A DNA stretch of 7,899 nucleotides from the NCBI GenBank assembly GCA_014382915.1, contig JACNIV010000017.1, positions 1-7,899 of the forward strand, read 5' to 3'. Positions 496 to 7,278 of the stretch are shown piece by piece (position 1 is the stretch's first letter; each line of letters begins with the position of its first letter). The notes below the pieces were generated by a model. The model was not told the origin of the DNA. It ran no database searches and was given only the letters and a program-made list of their open reading frames with translations. This stretch comes from Candidatus Cloacimonadota bacterium. GTDB lineage: Bacteria; Cloacimonadota; Cloacimonadia; Cloacimonadales; TCS61. The translations under genes were made by a program, and so were the position numbers.

Positions 496-1533
496 ATGTT
501 TTTCGATAATATCGCGAGTCTTTTTTCCAATGATATTGCTATTGATTTGGGAACTGCAAATACACTTGTTTATCGTAAAGGGGTGGGAATCGTGATTGAT
601 GAGCCTTCTGTGGTAGCTATCTCCGTCGATGGCAAGAGAATCATTGCAATCGGAGAAGATGCCAAAGATATGCTGGGTAAGAATCCGGAAGAAGTTAGAA
701 TAATTAAACCACTGAAGGATGGTGTTATTGCTGATTTTCAGGTTACTGAACTGATGTTGAGAAACCTGATATTGCGTGCTCAGAAAAAACGCCTTCTTAT
801 TAAACCAAGAGTTTTAGTATGTGTTCCTTCCGGAATAACAGAAGTAGAAAAGCGTGCTGTACGCGACAGTGCAATTCATGCCGGGGCACGAGAAGTATAC
901 CTTGTTCCTGAACCTATCGCAGCAGCCATTGGAGCCGATCTTCCCATCCACAAACCGCAGGGCAACCTGATTATGGATATCGGAGGGGGAACAACAGAGA
1001 TCGCTATCATCTCACTTTCCCATATTGTGGTTCACACTTCTATTAGAGTGGGTGGCGATAAAATGGACGAAGCTATAGTTAGCTACTTGAGAAAAAGAAA
1101 TAATATTTTTGTCGGAATTCAAACTGCAGAAAAAGTAAAGATGAAAATCGGTTCTGCCTATCCCCTGGAAAAGGAATTGAGATCCGAAATTCGTGGCAGG
1201 GATATTATCACAGGATATCCCATCACTGTAGAAGTAACCTCGGAAGAGATACGAGAAGCATTATCGGAAAACGTAACAGCTATGATAGATGCAGTGAAAC
1301 ACCTGTTCGAGAAAACAGCGCCTGAACTTGCAGCCGACATTGCCGAGCGAGGATTGATCCTGACCGGTGGAGGAGCCCAACTGAAAGGCCTTGATAAAAA
1401 AATACAAGATACCGTGGACTTACCTGTTCATGTGATGCCCGAACCACTTACATGTGTTCTGAAAGGATGTGGACAGGTTCTGGATAACCTGGAAGATTAC
1501 CGGGAAGTCCTCCTTAAAAAAATTGAATCTTAA
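496..1533 (+). CDS. mreB: rod shape-determining protein MreB (bacterial actin)
   Basis: MreB is the actin-family ATPase whose membrane-bound filaments orient the elongation machinery. At 345 residues it has the usual family length. The N-terminus carries a short hydrophobic stretch (MFFDNIASLF) like the membrane-binding amphipathic helix of other MreBs. The phosphate-1 loop is DLGTANT (residues 17-23), and EPSVVA follows. The conserved EPIAAAIGA begins at E139 and carries the presumed hydrolytic glutamate. The phosphate-2 loop is DIGGGTTE (161-168), and LTGGGAQL near residue 290 forms the adenosine pocket. GSAYPLE, in the middle of the protein, is also typical of MreB. The start is the ATG preceded by GGAGG. 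It is the first gene of the operon, next to a candidate promoter, and mreC follows five bases after its stop. All nucleotide-binding motifs are present, so it should be functional. One small oddity is Pro138, where many MreBs have an acidic residue before the Glu-Pro. Confidence 0.98.
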   Translation: MFFDNIASLFSNDIAIDLGTANTLVYRKGVGIVIDEPSVVAISVDGKRIIAIGEDAKDMLGKNPEEVRIIKPLKDGVIADFQVTELMLRNLILRAQKKRLLIKPRVLVCVPSGITEVEKRAVRDSAIHAGAREVYLVPEPIAAAIGADLPIHKPQGNLIMDIGGGTTEIAIISLSHIVVHTSIRVGGDKMDEAIVSYLRKRNNIFVGIQTAEKVKMKIGSAYPLEKELRSEIRGRDIITGYPITVEVTSEEIREALSENVTAMIDAVKHLFEKTAPELAADIAERGLILTGGGAQLKGLDKKIQDTVDLPVHVMPEPLTCVLKGCGQVLDNLEDYREVLLKKIES

Positions 1534-1538
1534 AAAAA

Positions 1539-2333
1539 GTGAAAGAAAAAATCCCCATTATTATCTACCTCTTTCTAGCACTGGTACTTTTTTTAGGGAA
1601 TAATGAGCAAAGACAGAAAAAAGCCAATTTTCTAAGTAAAACCGTTTTCTATCCATTTATTACTTCTTTAAAAAAAATTGAATCACTTTTCGAAATCAAG
1701 GAAAAAAATATACTTCTTGCACAATCTATTGCCGGGCAAACAATAAAGATAACTGCCCTGGAAAATGAGTTAAAAGAATTGAATAGTATCCGATTAAACT
1801 ATGATTCGGGAATATATCATTTCTTGCTGGCAGATATAATAGGTTATAAAGGTAATTTCCTCGAACGTAATTTCATTATCAATAAAGGAAAGCTGCAAAA
1901 TGTGGAAACAAATTATCCTGTTATTTCCAACGATGGCATTGTAGGAAAAATTATATCTGTCTCCCAGAATTTTTCTGTTGTTTTACCGCTTGATCACTCT
2001 ACATTCAAACTGGGTGTGATGTCCAAACGAACCCATCTGCAAGGTATTATGGAATCTAATATTTACGGTAATTCTTTTATGACCCTGATCAAATTAGGTT
2101 CTGATATCGTGCTGGGAGATACCATAGTAACATCCAATATTTCAACGATTTTCCCGAAGGGTTTTCCCGTTGGCATTGTAACTAAACTCATCGAAGAACC
2201 AGACAAGACCCACATGACCGCCCAGATATCAACTTTCACCAAGCCCGCCAGTATGGATCAGGTAATTATATTATTCTGTAAGAAGGATACAAGCTATGAA
2301 CAAGAACTCGATGTTGATAGAAGTGAATGGTAA
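1539..2333 (+). CDS. mreC: rod shape-determining protein MreC
   Basis: MreC is a bitopic inner-membrane protein that links cytoplasmic MreB to periplasmic PBP2 and helps activate it. The 264-residue product has a membrane anchor at about residues 5-20 (IPIIIYLFLALVLFL) and then a charged helical stretch at about 50-88 (EIKEKN to ELKELNSI) that fits the dimerising coiled coil. The rest is the beta-barrel MreC core, including FIINKG (about 109), SNDGIVGKI (about 129) and the late segment FPKGFPVGIVTKL, which is very typical of the family. It is at the short end of the usual 270-370 range. The start is a GTG five bases after the mreB stop, with no Shine-Dalgarno sequence, so re-initiation by ribosomes finishing mreB is likely. 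Its last 38 bases overlap the next gene. Assignment rests on fold pattern, motifs and position between mreB and mreD. Confidence 0.93.
   Translation: MKEKIPIIIYLFLALVLFLGNNEQRQKKANFLSKTVFYPFITSLKKIESLFEIKEKNILLAQSIAGQTIKITALENELKELNSIRLNYDSGIYHFLLADIIGYKGNFLERNFIINKGKLQNVETNYPVISNDGIVGKIISVSQNFSVVLPLDHSTFKLGVMSKRTHLQGIMESNIYGNSFMTLIKLGSDIVLGDTIVTSNISTIFPKGFPVGIVTKLIEEPDKTHMTAQISTFTKPASMDQVIILFCKKDTSYEQELDVDRSEW
2283..2287 (+). promoter_or_regulatory. ribosome binding site inside mreC for the CofE-like gene
   Basis: AAGGA lies eight bases before the ATG at 2296 and inside the mreC coding sequence. It favours 2296 over the second in-frame ATG at 2311 and so supports the 38-base overlap with mreC. 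Confidence 0.6.
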
Positions 2334-2982
2334 ACAATACAAAAGAATTCCGATTAAGACCAAAATTCTTACAGCGGAAGATAATATGTTGAACATTATC
2401 CGCTTAAAAACAAAAAGCATAATACAAGAAAAAGACATAATCTCTATCAGTGAAAGTCCTCTTGCCATTACTCAAGGAAGAGCTATTCCCGTGAAAGATA
2501 TTAAAGTAAGTATACTGGCAAATGTTTTGTGGCGTTTTGTTTCCAAAGTAGAATATGGTATCGGGTTACGTTCTCCCACCAGCATGCAATGTGCAATAGA
2601 TGAAGTAGGTAACTGCAGAATGTTGTGTGCAGCATTTATCGGTGGTTTAGCCCGGCTGATAGGAAGACGCGGGAAAGGTGATTTTTATCGTATTGCCGGT
2701 AAACAGGCTGCCCTTATCGACGCTGCTACTACTTCTCCTGTTCCACCTTATAAAAACTGTGTAATAAAAGGTCCCAAATATCCTGAAATCGAAGCTCAAA
2801 AAATAAAGGATTCGCTGGGAAATGAATGTGCTGTAATGGACATCAATGATATCGGTGGCTGTTGGATGGTAGGAGGTAGTAACGGGATCGATAAAAAATT
2901 TATGGAAGAGGTAATGAAAGATAATCCGCAGGGCCAGGGAGCAGAACTTACTCCAATATGCCTGATACGTGAGGTAAAATGA
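2296..2982 (+). CDS. CofE-like (F420-0:gamma-glutamyl ligase family) protein in the mre operon
   Basis: The 228-residue protein resembles the coenzyme F420-0:L-glutamate ligase domain family (CofE/FbiB, PF01996), enzymes that form gamma-glutamyl amide bonds with GTP and divalent metal. Family-type features, recognised by memory and not by a search, are: SESPLAITQGRAIP (about residues 52-65), YGIGLRSPTSM (about 87-97), LIGRRGKGDFYRIAG (121-135), a Pro-rich PVPPY (148-152), KGPKYP (158-163), VMDINDIGG (180-188), which parallels the metal-binding ITD region of CofE, and a late DNPQGQGAELTP. It belongs to the branch of uncharacterised homologues found in bacteria that do not make F420, so the substrate is unknown. 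There is no signal peptide or membrane segment, so it is cytoplasmic. It has seven cysteines (99, 107, 111, 155, 178, 189, 222). It overlaps mreC by 38 bases and mreD by 4, so it is fully embedded in the elongasome operon. A role in modifying a cell-wall precursor or envelope component is inference only. Confidence 0.8.
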   Translation: MNKNSMLIEVNGKQYKRIPIKTKILTAEDNMLNIIRLKTKSIIQEKDIISISESPLAITQGRAIPVKDIKVSILANVLWRFVSKVEYGIGLRSPTSMQCAIDEVGNCRMLCAAFIGGLARLIGRRGKGDFYRIAGKQAALIDAATTSPVPPYKNCVIKGPKYPEIEAQKIKDSLGNECAVMDINDIGGCWMVGGSNGIDKKFMEEVMKDNPQGQGAELTPICLIREVK

Positions 2983-3464
2983 GGATATTGAAATATCTCG
3001 TACTTGGTATACTGCTTCTCTATTTCCAGATCATGCTCGCACCTAAATTTGCACTTTATGGCATTATACCCAATTTTTTTCTTGCTTACCTGGTTTATCT
3101 GAACATCAGGCAAGATAGAAAGATTGTTTTACCAATTGCATTTCTGCTGGGTTTAGCTCTTGATCTTACTTATCCTTCTTTGTTGGGCATGAACACCTTT
3201 GCATTTATTGTTGTTTCTTTATTGATTAATTCTTACCATGAAAATATCAATAAAAGAAGATTTATAATTGTGCTTTTGGGAATAATAGTCGTAAATATTG
3301 TTTATTATTTAATTTTTATGTTTTATCATATCATTTCTTCTCTCATATTGCCCAGGTTTTTCCTGTTGGCAATGTTCGCTGTATTTTTCAATACAATTTT
3401 CACAACGATCACTCTTTACTTGTTCATTATTGCAGAAAAATTCAGGTTTACTATTAATGTATAG
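2979..3464 (+). CDS. mreD: rod shape-determining protein MreD
   Basis: MreD is a small polytopic inner-membrane protein that modulates MreC-PBP2 interaction in the elongasome. The 161-residue product is almost wholly hydrophobic, with about five to six membrane segments, starting with YLVLGILLLYFQIML (residues 5-19) and ending with a helix near 140-155. Two features match MreD well: APKFALYGIIPNFFLAYLVY after the first helix, and FLLGLALDLTYPSLLGMNTF at about 55-74, which corresponds to the family's G-x-x-x-D-x-x-x/G-x-N-x-F region. The length is typical (about 160-180). The ATG overlaps the stop of the CofE-like gene as ATGA, with GAGG four bases upstream. The sequence is poorly conserved in this family, so position between mreC and mrdA also supports the call. 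Confidence 0.9.
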   Translation: MRILKYLVLGILLLYFQIMLAPKFALYGIIPNFFLAYLVYLNIRQDRKIVLPIAFLLGLALDLTYPSLLGMNTFAFIVVSLLINSYHENINKRRFIIVLLGIIVVNIVYYLIFMFYHIISSLILPRFFLLAMFAVFFNTIFTTITLYLFIIAEKFRFTINV

Positions 3465-5211
3465 CGGGCAGCAAAAACCATTGCTCCTTAATTACACCCT
3501 GATCAGTGTTTTCCTAATTCTTTTTTTATCTATTTTTAAATTACAGATCATAGAGAGCACTAAATACACTACCATTGCCGAAAAGAATTTCGTAAGAATA
3601 AAAACCTTATTTCCTATCAGGGGTGAGATTTATGATAGAAAATACAGGGCGATTGTCTTGAACAAACCATCTTATAATCTTTATATTTCGCTTAATAAAA
3701 TCCAGGACAGAAAGCAAGTAACGGAATTTATCAGCCAGAACTTTGATTTAAGCCTGGATGAGATCAATAAAATAATTTACGATAATAGATTTCGGCTGTA
3801 TAAAGATGTACTAATTGTACAAAATATTAGTTTCGGAAAAATGGTTAAAATTTCCGAGCAGATGAATTACTATCCTTCGCTTTCTCTTAAAAGTGAAAAA
3901 ATCAGACATTATCTATATAATAATCACTTCACCGGATACACAGGTAGAATAAACGAGAATGAGTATACAAAATATAAAGAACAGGGTTATTCTATAAACA
4001 GCTATATTGGTAAAAGCGGGTTAGAAAAATACTATGAAGACCTGTTGCGTGGTAAGAATGGTTACCAGTTACTACAGGTGGATGCAAGTGGACAGAACCT
4101 GCAGTTCTTTAAGCACAACCTTGACAAACCACCTGTCAATGGCACCAGTATGATCCTGACTATCGATAACGATCTACAGTATTATATCAGTTCAATTTTT
4201 CCAAAAGAAAAGAATGGAGCTATTGTTGTGATGGACGTAAAAACCGGGGGTATTTTAGCTTATGTGAGCAAACCGGATTTCAATCAAAATATTTTCAGCG
4301 AAAATTTAACTACTGAGCAATGGAACGATATCATAAATGATCCTGCTAAACCCATGCTGGACCGCATTATTCATGGTACTTATCCACCGGCTTCGGTTTT
4401 TAAACTCATAATGGCAACCCTGGCTTTAGAAGATGAAGTTATCAACGAAAAAACCAAACTTACTCGATGTGAAGGTGGAATGTGGTTCGGAAATCGTTAT
4501 TTCAAATGCTGGTGGGAAAAAGGACATGGTCGTCTGAATGTATTGGATGCTATAAAGTATTCTTGTGATGTCTTTTTCTATGATCTTTCCACACAATTTT
4601 CATTGGAACAAATAAATAACTTCACCAAAGAGAATATGCTTACAATTAGAACAGGAGTTGATCTGCCTGGTGAACGAAATGGTTTTTTCCCAACCAGAAA
4701 ATGGTACAAAGATAATTATGGAAAATATGTTGGTATCATCGGGCATAAGGTAAATTTAGCTATCGGGCAGGGTGAAGTATTGGTTACACCGTTACAGATA
4801 TGTGCCTATTATGCAGCTCTGGGTAATAATGGAAAGTGGATAAAACCGCATCTACTTACAAAAACAATAACCGGTACTGAATCTAACTACATTCAGCCGG
4901 AAATCAGACAGCTTCCTGTTTCACAAAAAAACATGGCATTAATACAAAAGTCACTGTTCAATGCTGTAAATGAAAGCTATGGGACTGGCGTAGCTGCCAG
5001 TCTTAGCAATGTATCTGTTTTTGGAAAGACCGGTTCAGCTGAAAATCATATGGGCAAGAAAACACACTCCTGGTTTGCCGGATATGCCAGGCAAGATGAA
5101 TTTGAAATTGCATTTGTTGTTTTCCTGGAAAATGCCGGACATGGTGGAAGTATTTCTGCGCCTATTGCCAGAAAGATCATTCAATATTATTATAATCTGG
5201 AAAAATCATGA
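3457..5211 (+). CDS. mrdA: penicillin-binding protein 2, elongasome transpeptidase (MrdA)
   Basis: PBP2 is the class B penicillin-binding protein that cross-links side-wall peptidoglycan and works with RodA. From the ATG at 3457 it has 584 residues, close to the family norm. A single membrane anchor lies at about 8-30 (LLLNYTLISVFLILFLSIF). The pedestal domain begins with the conserved RGEIYDR, where many homologues read RGxIxDRN. The transpeptidase domain carries all three active-site motifs: SVFK with catalytic Ser313 and Lys316, SCD at 369-371, and KTG at 524-526. PPAS, GHGRLNVLDA and GQGEVLVTPLQ are also family-typical. The start could be the TTG at 3430, but the ATG is preferred because it leaves only 8 bases of overlap with mreD and starts just before the anchor. 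A weak AGG lies 10 bases upstream. It ends in an ATGA overlap with rodA. The SCD motif suits PBP2 rather than the cell-division protein FtsI, as do the mre neighbours. Confidence 0.96.
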   Translation: MYSGQQKPLLLNYTLISVFLILFLSIFKLQIIESTKYTTIAEKNFVRIKTLFPIRGEIYDRKYRAIVLNKPSYNLYISLNKIQDRKQVTEFISQNFDLSLDEINKIIYDNRFRLYKDVLIVQNISFGKMVKISEQMNYYPSLSLKSEKIRHYLYNNHFTGYTGRINENEYTKYKEQGYSINSYIGKSGLEKYYEDLLRGKNGYQLLQVDASGQNLQFFKHNLDKPPVNGTSMILTIDNDLQYYISSIFPKEKNGAIVVMDVKTGGILAYVSKPDFNQNIFSENLTTEQWNDIINDPAKPMLDRIIHGTYPPASVFKLIMATLALEDEVINEKTKLTRCEGGMWFGNRYFKCWWEKGHGRLNVLDAIKYSCDVFFYDLSTQFSLEQINNFTKENMLTIRTGVDLPGERNGFFPTRKWYKDNYGKYVGIIGHKVNLAIGQGEVLVTPLQICAYYAALGNNGKWIKPHLLTKTITGTESNYIQPEIRQLPVSQKNMALIQKSLFNAVNESYGTGVAASLSNVSVFGKTGSAENHMGKKTHSWFAGYARQDEFEIAFVVFLENAGHGGSISAPIARKIIQYYYNLEKS

Positions 5212-6416
5212 GAGAATTCGACTGGGTAACATTACTTCTGCTGGTTATGCTGCTTACATGTGGTATTATTGCGATCTATTCAGCTTCTACCACCCAAATA
5301 GGAAATGATTTTCAGACAGAAAATTATTATCTTAAACAGATAATCTGGATTATTATTGCCTTTATTATTACATTTTTAATTATACGAACTCCATACAGTG
5401 TAATCGAAATAATGATACCACCAGCTTATATTATATCGATCATGTTGTTAATAATTGTACTGTTCATGCCAGAGATAAAAGGTTCTCAACGTTGGATCCC
5501 GCTGGGTCTTTTCAATTTTCAACCCTCAGAATTAGCTAAACTTACTACTATTTTATTAGTAACTAAGCTTATTTCCAAACCTCATATCACTAACTGGCAG
5601 ATCATTTCACGTTCTTTTATAATTTTTCTTATCCCGATAATTTTAATATTTCTTGAACCCGATCTGGGTACTTCACTCTGTTTAATAGTTAGCTTTTTTG
5701 TCATCCTGACTGCTTCAGATATTTCGGCTTTTTATATCATTCTCATCATTAGCCCACTGATAAGTATTATTGCTTCATTTTCACTTATTATATTCATTAT
5801 TTATATTCTAATTCTTATTTACATTTTATTTAAAACAAATCTTGATAAAATAATCATAGGTTTTGCTGTAGTTTTGAATACTTTTTTCTTTTTAATTACA
5901 CCCTTCATCTGGAACAGCTTGAAAGAATACCAGCAAAATCGTATTCTCACATTCATCGATCCGATGCGTGATCCTTTTGGAGCAGGTTATCAGATCATTC
6001 AGTCACGGATAGCCATAGGTTCGGGTGGATTCTGGGGTAAGGGATTTCTCATGGGTACTCAAAAGAATCTGAATTTCCTGCCAGAGCATCATACAGACTT
6101 CATATTTTCTGTGATCGGTGAAGAATTTGGATTTTTAGGTTGCGCAATTATTTTGCTAATCTATTTTTTGTTCTTGTATAGAATTGTAAGAAAAATAAAT
6201 ATGTTAAAAAGAAAGGAATTCAGATTTGCTGCCATTGGAATTCTGGCATATTTGACTTTTCAGATCTTTATAAATATCGGAATGAATATCGGTATCGTGC
6301 CAACAACAGGCATTCCGTTACCGTTCATTAGTTATGGTGGTTCCAATTTGCTGATAAATATCCTGGCAATTGGACTCGTGTTGAAATTCCTGAATGAAAG
6401 AAGTATTTTTGAATAG
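5208..6416 (+). CDS. rodA: peptidoglycan glycosyltransferase RodA (SEDS family)
   Basis: RodA polymerises lipid II into glycan strands during cylindrical growth, paired with the PBP2 encoded just upstream. The 402-residue protein is polytopic with about ten membrane segments and is slightly longer than E. coli RodA (370). SEDS signatures appear in order: GSQRWIPLG with QPSELAK (about 95-116), EPDLGTS (about 149-155), FIDPMRDPFGAGYQIIQS, GFWGKGF, then FLPEHHTDFIF with Asp297, the equivalent of the essential catalytic aspartate in this motif, and finally GIPLPFISYGGSN near the C-terminus. The PEHHTDFIF wording and pairing with mrdA indicate RodA rather than FtsW or SpoVE. Translation starts in an ATGA overlap with mrdA, with only a weak GGAA five bases before it, so coupling is likely. 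The middle third (about 5740-5890) is very AT- and Ile-rich, encoding back-to-back membrane helices. No key residue is missing. Confidence 0.97.
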   Translation: MREFDWVTLLLLVMLLTCGIIAIYSASTTQIGNDFQTENYYLKQIIWIIIAFIITFLIIRTPYSVIEIMIPPAYIISIMLLIIVLFMPEIKGSQRWIPLGLFNFQPSELAKLTTILLVTKLISKPHITNWQIISRSFIIFLIPIILIFLEPDLGTSLCLIVSFFVILTASDISAFYIILIISPLISIIASFSLIIFIIYILILIYILFKTNLDKIIIGFAVVLNTFFFLITPFIWNSLKEYQQNRILTFIDPMRDPFGAGYQIIQSRIAIGSGGFWGKGFLMGTQKNLNFLPEHHTDFIFSVIGEEFGFLGCAIILLIYFLFLYRIVRKINMLKRKEFRFAAIGILAYLTFQIFINIGMNIGIVPTTGIPLPFISYGGSNLLINILAIGLVLKFLNERSIFE

Positions 6417-6424
6417 GAGTAAAT

Positions 6425-7000
6425 ATGAAAAAGTTAATCATAGGCGTAATCGTAATATTAACCAGTTGTTATTTTGGTTCGATAATGCGCTTTTCCGAGA
6501 AAGATATAGGTGACACAGTAAACACTGTAATCAATCCCAGCTTTGAAGACGGAGACTATAATTTTGAAACTTTACCTGAAGAATGGATGGTGCTGAATGA
6601 TGCAGCCGAAAAAATATTCTGGGATAACAATTATAGGTGTACAGGTTCAAAAAGTTTGCGGATTGAGTATCCAGATGACAATATCAACATTATTTCCGAT
6701 GCCTTTCCAATAAATCCGGAATACGTTTACTATTCACGCTGTTTCCTGCGGACTAATTACCGATCCAACCATTCGGTGGTGATCAGATTTCTTGCTTTTA
6801 ATGCTAAGGGTAAAAGAGTGAATAAATTCAGCAACAAAGGATATCCAAAAGAAGACTGGACCCAGATCGACTTGACCTCCGGATTTCTAAACAGTACTGC
6901 CAGATTTGGTAGAATAATTATTTCCATACCCAAAAAGCCCGATAAGATCTTCTGGATTGATGATGTAGAAAGTTATAATGTTTATAAAATTCAAAAATAG
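6425..7000 (+). CDS. lipoprotein with a carbohydrate-binding-like jelly-roll domain
   Basis: I do not recognise a named family. The 191-residue protein begins with a lipoprotein signal: MKK, a hydrophobic stretch, then LTSC with the lipidated Cys15. Residue +2 is Tyr, not Asp, so export to the outer membrane is possible if the E. coli sorting rule holds. The mature part looks like one beta-sandwich of the galactose-binding/CBM4-9 type: INPSFEDGD (36-44), then PEEW, then GSKSLRIEY at about 74, then alternating short strands, then WIDDVE (177-182) near the end. Openings such as NPSFE and endings such as WIDDV are typical of those domains, but the sugar ligand cannot be read from sequence. AGGAG five bases before the ATG gives a strong ribosome binding site, and it starts nine bases after rodA, so co-transcription with the elongasome genes is likely. 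A periplasmic peptidoglycan- or envelope-glycan-binding role is inference. Confidence 0.75.
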   Translation: MKKLIIGVIVILTSCYFGSIMRFSEKDIGDTVNTVINPSFEDGDYNFETLPEEWMVLNDAAEKIFWDNNYRCTGSKSLRIEYPDDNINIISDAFPINPEYVYYSRCFLRTNYRSNHSVVIRFLAFNAKGKRVNKFSNKGYPKEDWTQIDLTSGFLNSTARFGRIIISIPKKPDKIFWIDDVESYNVYKIQK

Positions 7001-7011: not shown

Positions 7012-7278
7012 ATGGCAAAAGAGAAGTATCTTTATGAACGTAAAAAATTCTGTGTTCCTGTTACAAAAGCCGAACCCTTAAATTCTATCCAGTTCATTAT
7101 TAATGATTTCATGAAAAAGAAGATTACTTTTTGTATAGACGGCAAAGGCGAGACATGGGAGATCTGGCGGCATGTGGATGACGGTGATAGCGACAAGATC
7201 AAGAAGACAGGAACTCCGATAAAACCTAAATATCTTTATGTGGAGGGTGAAGAAATAAAAGAGTTCGAACTTACCTAA
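7012..7278 (+). CDS. conserved-looking small protein of unknown function (88 aa)
   Basis: I do not recognise this protein. It has 88 residues, no signal peptide and no membrane segment, so it is probably cytoplasmic. It is charged, with many Lys and Glu, and alternates strand-like stretches (KFCVPVT, KITFCID, ETWEIWRHV, PKYLYVEG, IKEFEL) with one likely helix (NSIQFIINDFMKK, about 25-37), suggesting a compact alpha/beta fold. Two cysteines are present, Cys14 and Cys41. It starts 11 bases after the lipoprotein stop behind a strong GGAGG and is the last gene before the intrinsic terminator, so it appears to be the distal gene of the operon. Base composition resembles its neighbours and gives no sign of recent transfer. 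A structural prediction would be needed to say more. Confidence 0.7.
   Translation: MAKEKYLYERKKFCVPVTKAEPLNSIQFIINDFMKKKITFCIDGKGETWEIWRHVDDGDSDKIKKTGTPIKPKYLYVEGEEIKEFELT

Follow-up and report, generated by a model that had tools for sequence, protein, structure and literature searches.

Among the closest described systems to the protein studied here is CofE of Archaeoglobus fulgidus (PDB 2phn, 7uld), the F420-0:gamma-glutamyl ligase. As set out in the mechanistic passages of one study (PMC10861534), CofE transfers the gamma-phosphate of GTP to a carboxylate, which is then attacked by the amino group of glutamate; two divalent metals take part, R234 stacks on the deazaflavin, and the mechanism is said to be strongly similar to that of MurD. 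A CofE-homologous gamma-glutamyl ligase domain also forms the N-terminal domain of FbiB in Mycobacterium, where it is fused to a reductase domain and belongs to the F420 pathway (the part of PMC8498797 dealing with FbiB). A third system is CT611 (FolC2) of Chlamydia trachomatis, a COG1478 homologue of CofE that complements an E. coli folC mutant according to the passage devoted to it in PMC1971073, and whose FolC activity is also given in a table entry of PMC5041015.

We analyzed a window of 7,899 nucleotides, the whole stretch of Candidatus Cloacimonadota DNA under study, from a genome (G000) that is 78% complete; its close relatives that bear names are nearly all from Cloacimonadota. On its forward strand lies an mre operon made up of mreB (496..1533; PF06723, 457.7 bits; TIGR00904 over cut-off), mreC (1539..2333, with a GTG start; PF04085, 110.5 bits), a gene for a CofE-like (PF01996) protein of 228 amino acids that we call CofEL (2296..2982, ATG start), mreD (2979..3464; PF04093, 38.6 bits; TIGR03426, 52.5 bits), mrdA, encoding PBP2 (3430..5211; TIGR03423, 543.9 bits), and rodA (5208..6416; TIGR02210, 362.3 bits). 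The open reading frame list, from which the limits of mreC and CofEL are taken, agrees with the original prediction that the CofE-like gene overlaps the last 38 nt of mreC and shares 4 nt (ATGA) with mreD. The mrdA frame is open from a TTG at 3430, but translation more likely begins at an ATG at 3457. Downstream of rodA, a gene for an uncharacterized protein of 191 amino acids (6425..7000, forward strand; hydrophobic at its N terminus, matching neither Pfam nor NCBIfam) is a probable extension of the operon: it lies directly 3' of rodA in 38 of the 44 testable Cloacimonadota loci, and it is present also in genomes that lack CofEL. It is followed by an 88-amino-acid open reading frame (7012-7278) matching no family, whose relatives, sought within roughly 0.5 kb after rodA, were seen in two loci (L032 and L039). 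The 5' end of the window, upstream of mreB, carries the last part of recG, which was recognized by eye, and the 3' end a partial thioredoxin-reductase-type gene on the strand opposite to the mre operon.

By sequence profile and structural model, CofEL is a member of the PF01996/CofE superfamily. The window protein scores 27.8 bits against PF01996, over the curated cut-off of 25, the Pfam match being limited to residues 20 to 82, and all 25 rows of a broader alignment (A4), the window protein among them, match the family at E 0.01. The predicted structure of CofEL matches CofE, and a CofE-like fold is predicted, with 16% identity to the A. fulgidus enzyme over the structural alignment. Searching the PDB by sequence with the single CofEL protein or with alignment A1 returned no CofE, while the broader A4 profile found it at E 1.4e-4 over 72 positions; likewise, a single CofE sequence compared with A1 gave a probability of 4.9%, as against 98% for profile versus profile. 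We give the weaker of these outcomes the same standing as the stronger. The proposed lack of homology to Mur ligases was borne out by the Pfam search, in which none of the Mur ligase domains (PF01225, PF08245, PF02875) matched CofEL and PF01996 was the only family found.

The residues shared with CofE include the putative metal site. Asp142 (codon 2719..2721, forward strand) is invariant in A1 and A4 and aligns, profile against profile, with Asp109 of A. fulgidus CofE, and the first residue of a DIND motif (Asp182-Asp185; codons 2839..2850, forward strand) aligns in the same way with Asp150; Asp109 and Asp150 are the residues that we take to be metal ligands in CofE. Asp182, Asn184, and Asp185 are invariant across A4. 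A second motif, DNPQGQG (residues 209-215; codons 2920..2940, forward strand), is a signature of the CofE-like subfamily, with Asn210 and Gly213 invariant in A4 and Pro211 nearly so. In general form the two CofEL motifs read DxND and DNPxGQ, whereas A. fulgidus CofE has DTNGRCFR instead. The C termini differ as well: CofEL lacks the segment after CofE residue 222, ending where the structural alignment stops, and thus has no counterpart of the region that bears R234, while an arginine matching R234 is invariant in 20 archaeal CofE sequences.

These differences bear on whether CofEL could be a genuine CofE making F420 tails. Its PF01996 match and the automatic public names of such proteins ("coenzyme F420-0:L-glutamate ligase") speak for it. 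However, in agreement with the original prediction, which saw no F420 biosynthesis gene near CofEL, neither CofH (TIGR03551, at the cut-off) nor CofD (TIGR01819) was found in any of the 124 Cloacimonadota genomes, while each of the two models was over its cut-off in 3 of the 14 control genomes. Weak CofH-like matches (E 0.001) do occur in 69 of the 124, with a maximum of 56 bits against a cut-off of 374.1. Additionally, no NCBIfam model matched the window protein, the F420_cofE equivalog TIGR01916 included, and among five CofEL relatives three reached 23 to 31 bits against that model (cut-off, 180.65) and two had no match. Three features that define a strict CofE, namely the TIGR01916 match, the other F420 genes, and the C-terminal segment with the F420-stacking R234, are thus lacking. 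We regard a genuine CofE as highly improbable, and a role in F420 biosynthesis was rejected for this phylum on the missing CofH (over cut-off) and CofD. If CofEL is a wall enzyme, as proposed below, the automatic name would mislead in these genomes and is not to be taken as evidence of F420. CofEL differs from FbiB both in being free of a reductase domain and in standing outside an F420 pathway. Quite possibly, it carries out the CofE reaction with a different substrate.

CofEL was present in 96 of the 124 Cloacimonadota genomes, effectively as a single copy (in G075 and G087 as two contig pieces). When the surroundings of all 96 were examined, 90 of them showed CofEL flanked on its own strand by mreC on the 5' side and mreD on the 3' side. 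The CofEL open frame started before the mreC stop codon in 83 of 90 loci. The order mreC-CofEL-mreD, which the original prediction had named as what would support it, is thus kept across numerous species in which neither CofH nor CofD was found. Across 26 diverged Cloacimonadota sequences CofEL has 47 invariant columns, and this, together with the mreC and mreD flanks, points to conservation beyond chance. The order around the operon served as a control: in loci L032-L099, 43 upstream neighbors of mreB fell into 29 unrelated clusters, the largest with 8 members, and recG, the neighbor of mreB in the window, recurred in 1 of 45 loci. Gene order is therefore generally lost at this depth, while mreC-CofEL-mreD is kept.

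Two of the 90 are irregular: in G087 the mreC side and the mreD side are on two contigs, and in G121 a broken mreC stops 0.77 kb before CofEL. The other 6 carriers depart from the pattern. In G077 and G086 a contig ends before CofEL and mreD follows it. In G060, CofEL, mreD, and mrdA stand together and mreB-mreC is on another contig. There, a small gene resembling S4-type RNA-binding proteins (by eye) overlaps CofEL in the place of mreC (L040, 1173-1865 and 1850-2212). The last three, G028, G032, and G033 (loci L069, L076, and L077), belong to one genus and have CofEL outside the mre operon, each copy about 0.5 to 0.7 kb from a convergent NlpC/P60 gene (78 to 81 bits), a family known for wall hydrolases.

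The reverse case, an mre operon without CofEL, was also found. Nine genomes that show mreB-mreC-mreD-mrdA-rodA (G010, G018, G021, G023, G024, G029, G030, G031, and G054; 71 to 99% complete) gave no CofEL match in a genome search, although a copy elsewhere is possible in G021, G024, G029, and G031, which are under 90% complete. Additionally, G104 (64% complete) has mreC-mreD-mrdA without CofEL; in G071 the contig stops at mreC. Since mre operons can be intact without it, CofEL is not essential to the elongasome. Among the good genomes the co-occurrence of CofEL and MreC (59/1 versus 5/5; Fisher p 1.2e-4) is confounded by linkage, shared descent, and assembly gaps.

CofEL was not restricted to Cloacimonadota. 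In a sample of 386 genomes, Cloacimonadota included, it was found in 117, of which 21 were outside that phylum. One of these, G250, was identified as a member of the class Ca. Eremiobacterota, and its dcw cluster (L144) reads, by Pfam domains, FtsI, MurE, MurF, CofEL, MraY, MurD, FtsW, MurG, and MurC, the individual Mur ligases being told apart by order and motif. CofEL was present in 92 of the 101 genomes of this class, and the order murF-CofEL-mraY held in all 30 loci examined, which were the best-scoring 30 out of the 92 carrier genomes. Among genomes of named species, the same order was seen in 49 of 58 loci, some of the 49 being titled only "bacterium" and two "Rhodospirillales"; two more loci have mraY and a contig edge, and near the remaining 7, which come from other organisms, there are none of the searched wall genes. 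The class sample of 101 and the named-genome set are not independent of each other, since they probably have genomes in common. CofH over cut-off was found in 0 of the 101 genomes; CofH-like matches below the cut-off, many near 300 bits and in neighboring pairs, occur in 98, and these are presumably MqnC/MqnE of menaquinone synthesis. The mre operon in Cloacimonadota and the murF-mraY position in Eremiobacterota thus place CofEL in two different peptidoglycan operons of two phyla. In the open library of papers that we searched, we found no report of either mreC-CofEL-mreD or murF-CofEL-mraY.

The Eremiobacterota loci weigh against the idea of an elongasome protein as the target of CofEL, which might, for example, attach glutamate to MreB or MreD in a part exposed to the cytosol. 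The place of CofEL between mreC and mreD would fit such a role, as would the co-occurrence with MreC to the extent that its confounding allows. However, CofEL of Eremiobacterota adjoins murF and mraY and not mre genes. Moreover, the MreC tails, which face the periplasm, follow no rule of ending in glutamate (8 loci with Glu against 26 with Asn and 17 with Lys), and glutamylation of the MreC tail was rejected on this admittedly weak test. We consider modification of an elongasome protein quite unlikely.

To place the two groups, a tree was built from 22 rows of Cloacimonadota, 16 of Eremiobacterota, 11 presumed to be cyanobacterial, and 12 others, leaving out four long-branched ones (L137, L145, L146, and L214). 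The Cloacimonadota and Eremiobacterota proteins fell on opposite sides of a branch with 99/99 support, the latter grouping with the presumed cyanobacterial proteins and the former with those of other phyla; one row from another phylum (L129) fell among the Cloacimonadota. In an AU test, monophyly of the two wall-linked groups, with one common origin for the CofEL of both phyla, was not rejected (p 0.088). Separate recruitment into the two wall operons is therefore favored by the sequence tree but not shown.

The relatives examined outside Cloacimonadota and Eremiobacterota were not in wall operons, which speaks against a family tied to the wall alone; their neighbors were named in part by Pfam or NCBIfam and otherwise by eye. 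A CofEL relative follows argF in L128 and, with one small gene between, in L195, and in L129 it is flanked by scpB and an rsuA-like gene. The V-ATPase operon contains the relative in a small group within one other phylum (L130, L131, L217, and L218); this group gave four clear and two weak matches among 80 genomes, with subunit A recognized by Pfam in L218 and the rest by eye. In L138 and L139 the relative lies beyond a row of lipid A genes, the last of which encodes an acyltransferase (in L139, 129.8 bits to PF03279); the other genes of the row were named by eye. The presumed Cyanobacteria (19 of 79 genomes; L196-L214 and L143) have a CofEL with an N-terminal membrane segment and a stretch matching no Pfam family, and a GNAT gene lies 3' of it in the majority of the small number of loci inspected; in L134 and L135 it is the gene immediately 5' of CofEL that codes for such a membrane segment. 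In L137, L146, L147, and L162, CofEL is fused behind TPR-like repeats (by eye). Plasmids and viral contigs contained no CofEL relatives.

Such varied contexts (argF, scpB/rsuA-like, V-ATPase, lpx, and GNAT genes) would be expected if CofEL were an amide ligase of general use, with an unrelated metabolite as its substrate, that entered the wall operons by chance and was kept there by translational coupling. The overlapping gene ends favor coupling, the CofEL frame so often starting before the mreC stop, and an mre operon can be intact without CofEL. Nevertheless, this account needs two phylum-wide accidents, both of them in peptidoglycan operons, and in Cloacimonadota the flanking synteny decays quickly. 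It also has to accommodate the relocated copies, which are again near a wall hydrolase gene, and the CofEL of G060, which has no mreC neighbor and yet remains with mreD-mrdA. We judge a chance passenger of this kind to be unlikely, if credible.

The main rival account starts from CT611. Like CT611, CofEL is a COG1478 protein of bacteria, and the organisms of both are thought to be without F420 (as PMC1971073 has it where CT611 is treated). Since CT611 complements a folC mutant, CofEL could make folate, that is, be a FolC2-type enzyme that glutamylates dihydropteroate or folate, its place in wall operons having no functional meaning. This would fit L146, in which folP and a folK-folC fusion are transcribed divergently from the gene for the TPR-CofEL protein, and L350 of Caldanaerobacter, in which folP and folK lie 2 to 3.5 kb upstream of the CofEL relative. 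It would also fit G001, in which a P-loop motif scan recognized no FolC within the 1.6 Mb that were read out of 2.25 Mb (71%), although the sixth Mur_ligase_M domain of this genome lies in the unread 29% and could be FolC. On the other hand, the FolK-FolC fusion of L146, two genes from CofEL, is itself over the FolC cut-off (TIGR01499, 168.7 against 162.65 bits). Clustering with folate genes is also not the rule: a few relatives in other lineages are near folP or folK, but the genes flanking CofEL are wall genes in both Cloacimonadota and Eremiobacterota. In this respect CT611, which clusters with folate genes and was outside our tree, is unlike the CofEL of either wall-linked phylum.

The number of Mur ligase domains speaks to the same question. 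Among 70 good Cloacimonadota genomes, six Mur_ligase_M domains were counted in 49 of the 60 carriers of CofEL and in 9 of the 10 non-carriers; the other good genomes had 2 to 5, the lowest being G003 and G020 with 2, both carriers. Counts are thus alike with and without CofEL, and there is no sign of a FolC gained in exchange for it. All in all, a folate role seems to us improbable, though worth keeping in mind. Five of the six domains of G001 were identified as MurC, MurD, MurE, MurF, and PgsB. The PgsB, a poly-gamma-glutamate synthase (L267, 32-1219; G001:C1:1000032-1001219), scores 402.7 bits against the TIGR04012 cut-off of 222.7, and MurE and MurF of this genome share one open frame of 956 amino acids (G001:C1:897613-900480). 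In Cloacimonadota the best Mur_ligase_M match commonly falls in a frame of about 900 to 1050 amino acids, while the frames of family f13 are shorter, at about 510 to 550. With MurC, MurD, MurE, and MurF all present in both L144 and G001 and domain counts alike, replacement of a missing Mur ligase by CofEL was rejected. CofEL would, for the same reasons, add a step to wall synthesis and not replace one.

What we propose for CofEL is a cytosolic amide ligase that acts by way of an acyl phosphate on a peptidoglycan precursor, a reading that we consider about equally likely to be right or wrong. The chemistry would be that of CofE: an acyl phosphate would be formed from a nucleoside triphosphate on two divalent metals, and an amine would then attack it to give an amide bond. 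By analogy, this is also the route of MurD and the other Mur ligases, with which CofEL shares an operon in Eremiobacterota; it is set apart from them by its lack of homology in the tests made and by the presence of MurC to MurF beside it in L144. Since inspection of the CofEL sequence by eye revealed neither a signal nor a membrane segment, its acceptor would be expected in the cytosol or at the cytosolic face of the membrane. The position between murF and mraY suggests UDP-MurNAc-pentapeptide or lipid I/II as candidate acceptor molecules. In the simplest case, CofEL would modify either the free alpha-carboxyl of D-isoglutamate or that carboxyl of diaminopimelate which is free, with glutamate or another small amine as the donor.

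The substrate is a best guess from gene position. A wall precursor is suggested because CofEL is found in murein operons of two phyla, in one of them between the enzymes that finish the pentapeptide and load it onto the lipid. The original prediction had left the acceptor of glutamate or another amino acid open between a cell wall precursor, a lipid, and an elongasome protein; the order murF-CofEL-mraY favors the precursor over the other two. The same prediction had named what would speak against it, a full F420 pathway together with a gene order unique to one genome, or a missing PF01996 match, and neither outcome arose. It is nonetheless supported in part only, because the substrate and reaction are putative, CofEL has been lost from some mre operons, its other relatives have non-wall contexts, and a CofE homologue works in folate synthesis.

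Taken further, CofEL may represent a previously unrecognized class of peptidoglycan-precursor ligase with the CofE fold, which would extend UDP-MurNAc-pentapeptide or lipid I/II by a further amino acid in Cloacimonadota and Eremiobacterota, would modify the stem peptide of the wall without being a Mur, MurT/GatD, Fem, or ATP-grasp ligase, and would have been recruited separately into mre and dcw operons. We put this forward tentatively, its chances being somewhat below even. Should it hold, the fold that is known from adding the tail of a redox cofactor would also serve in building cell walls, and two mostly uncultured phyla would differ from textbook wall chemistry.
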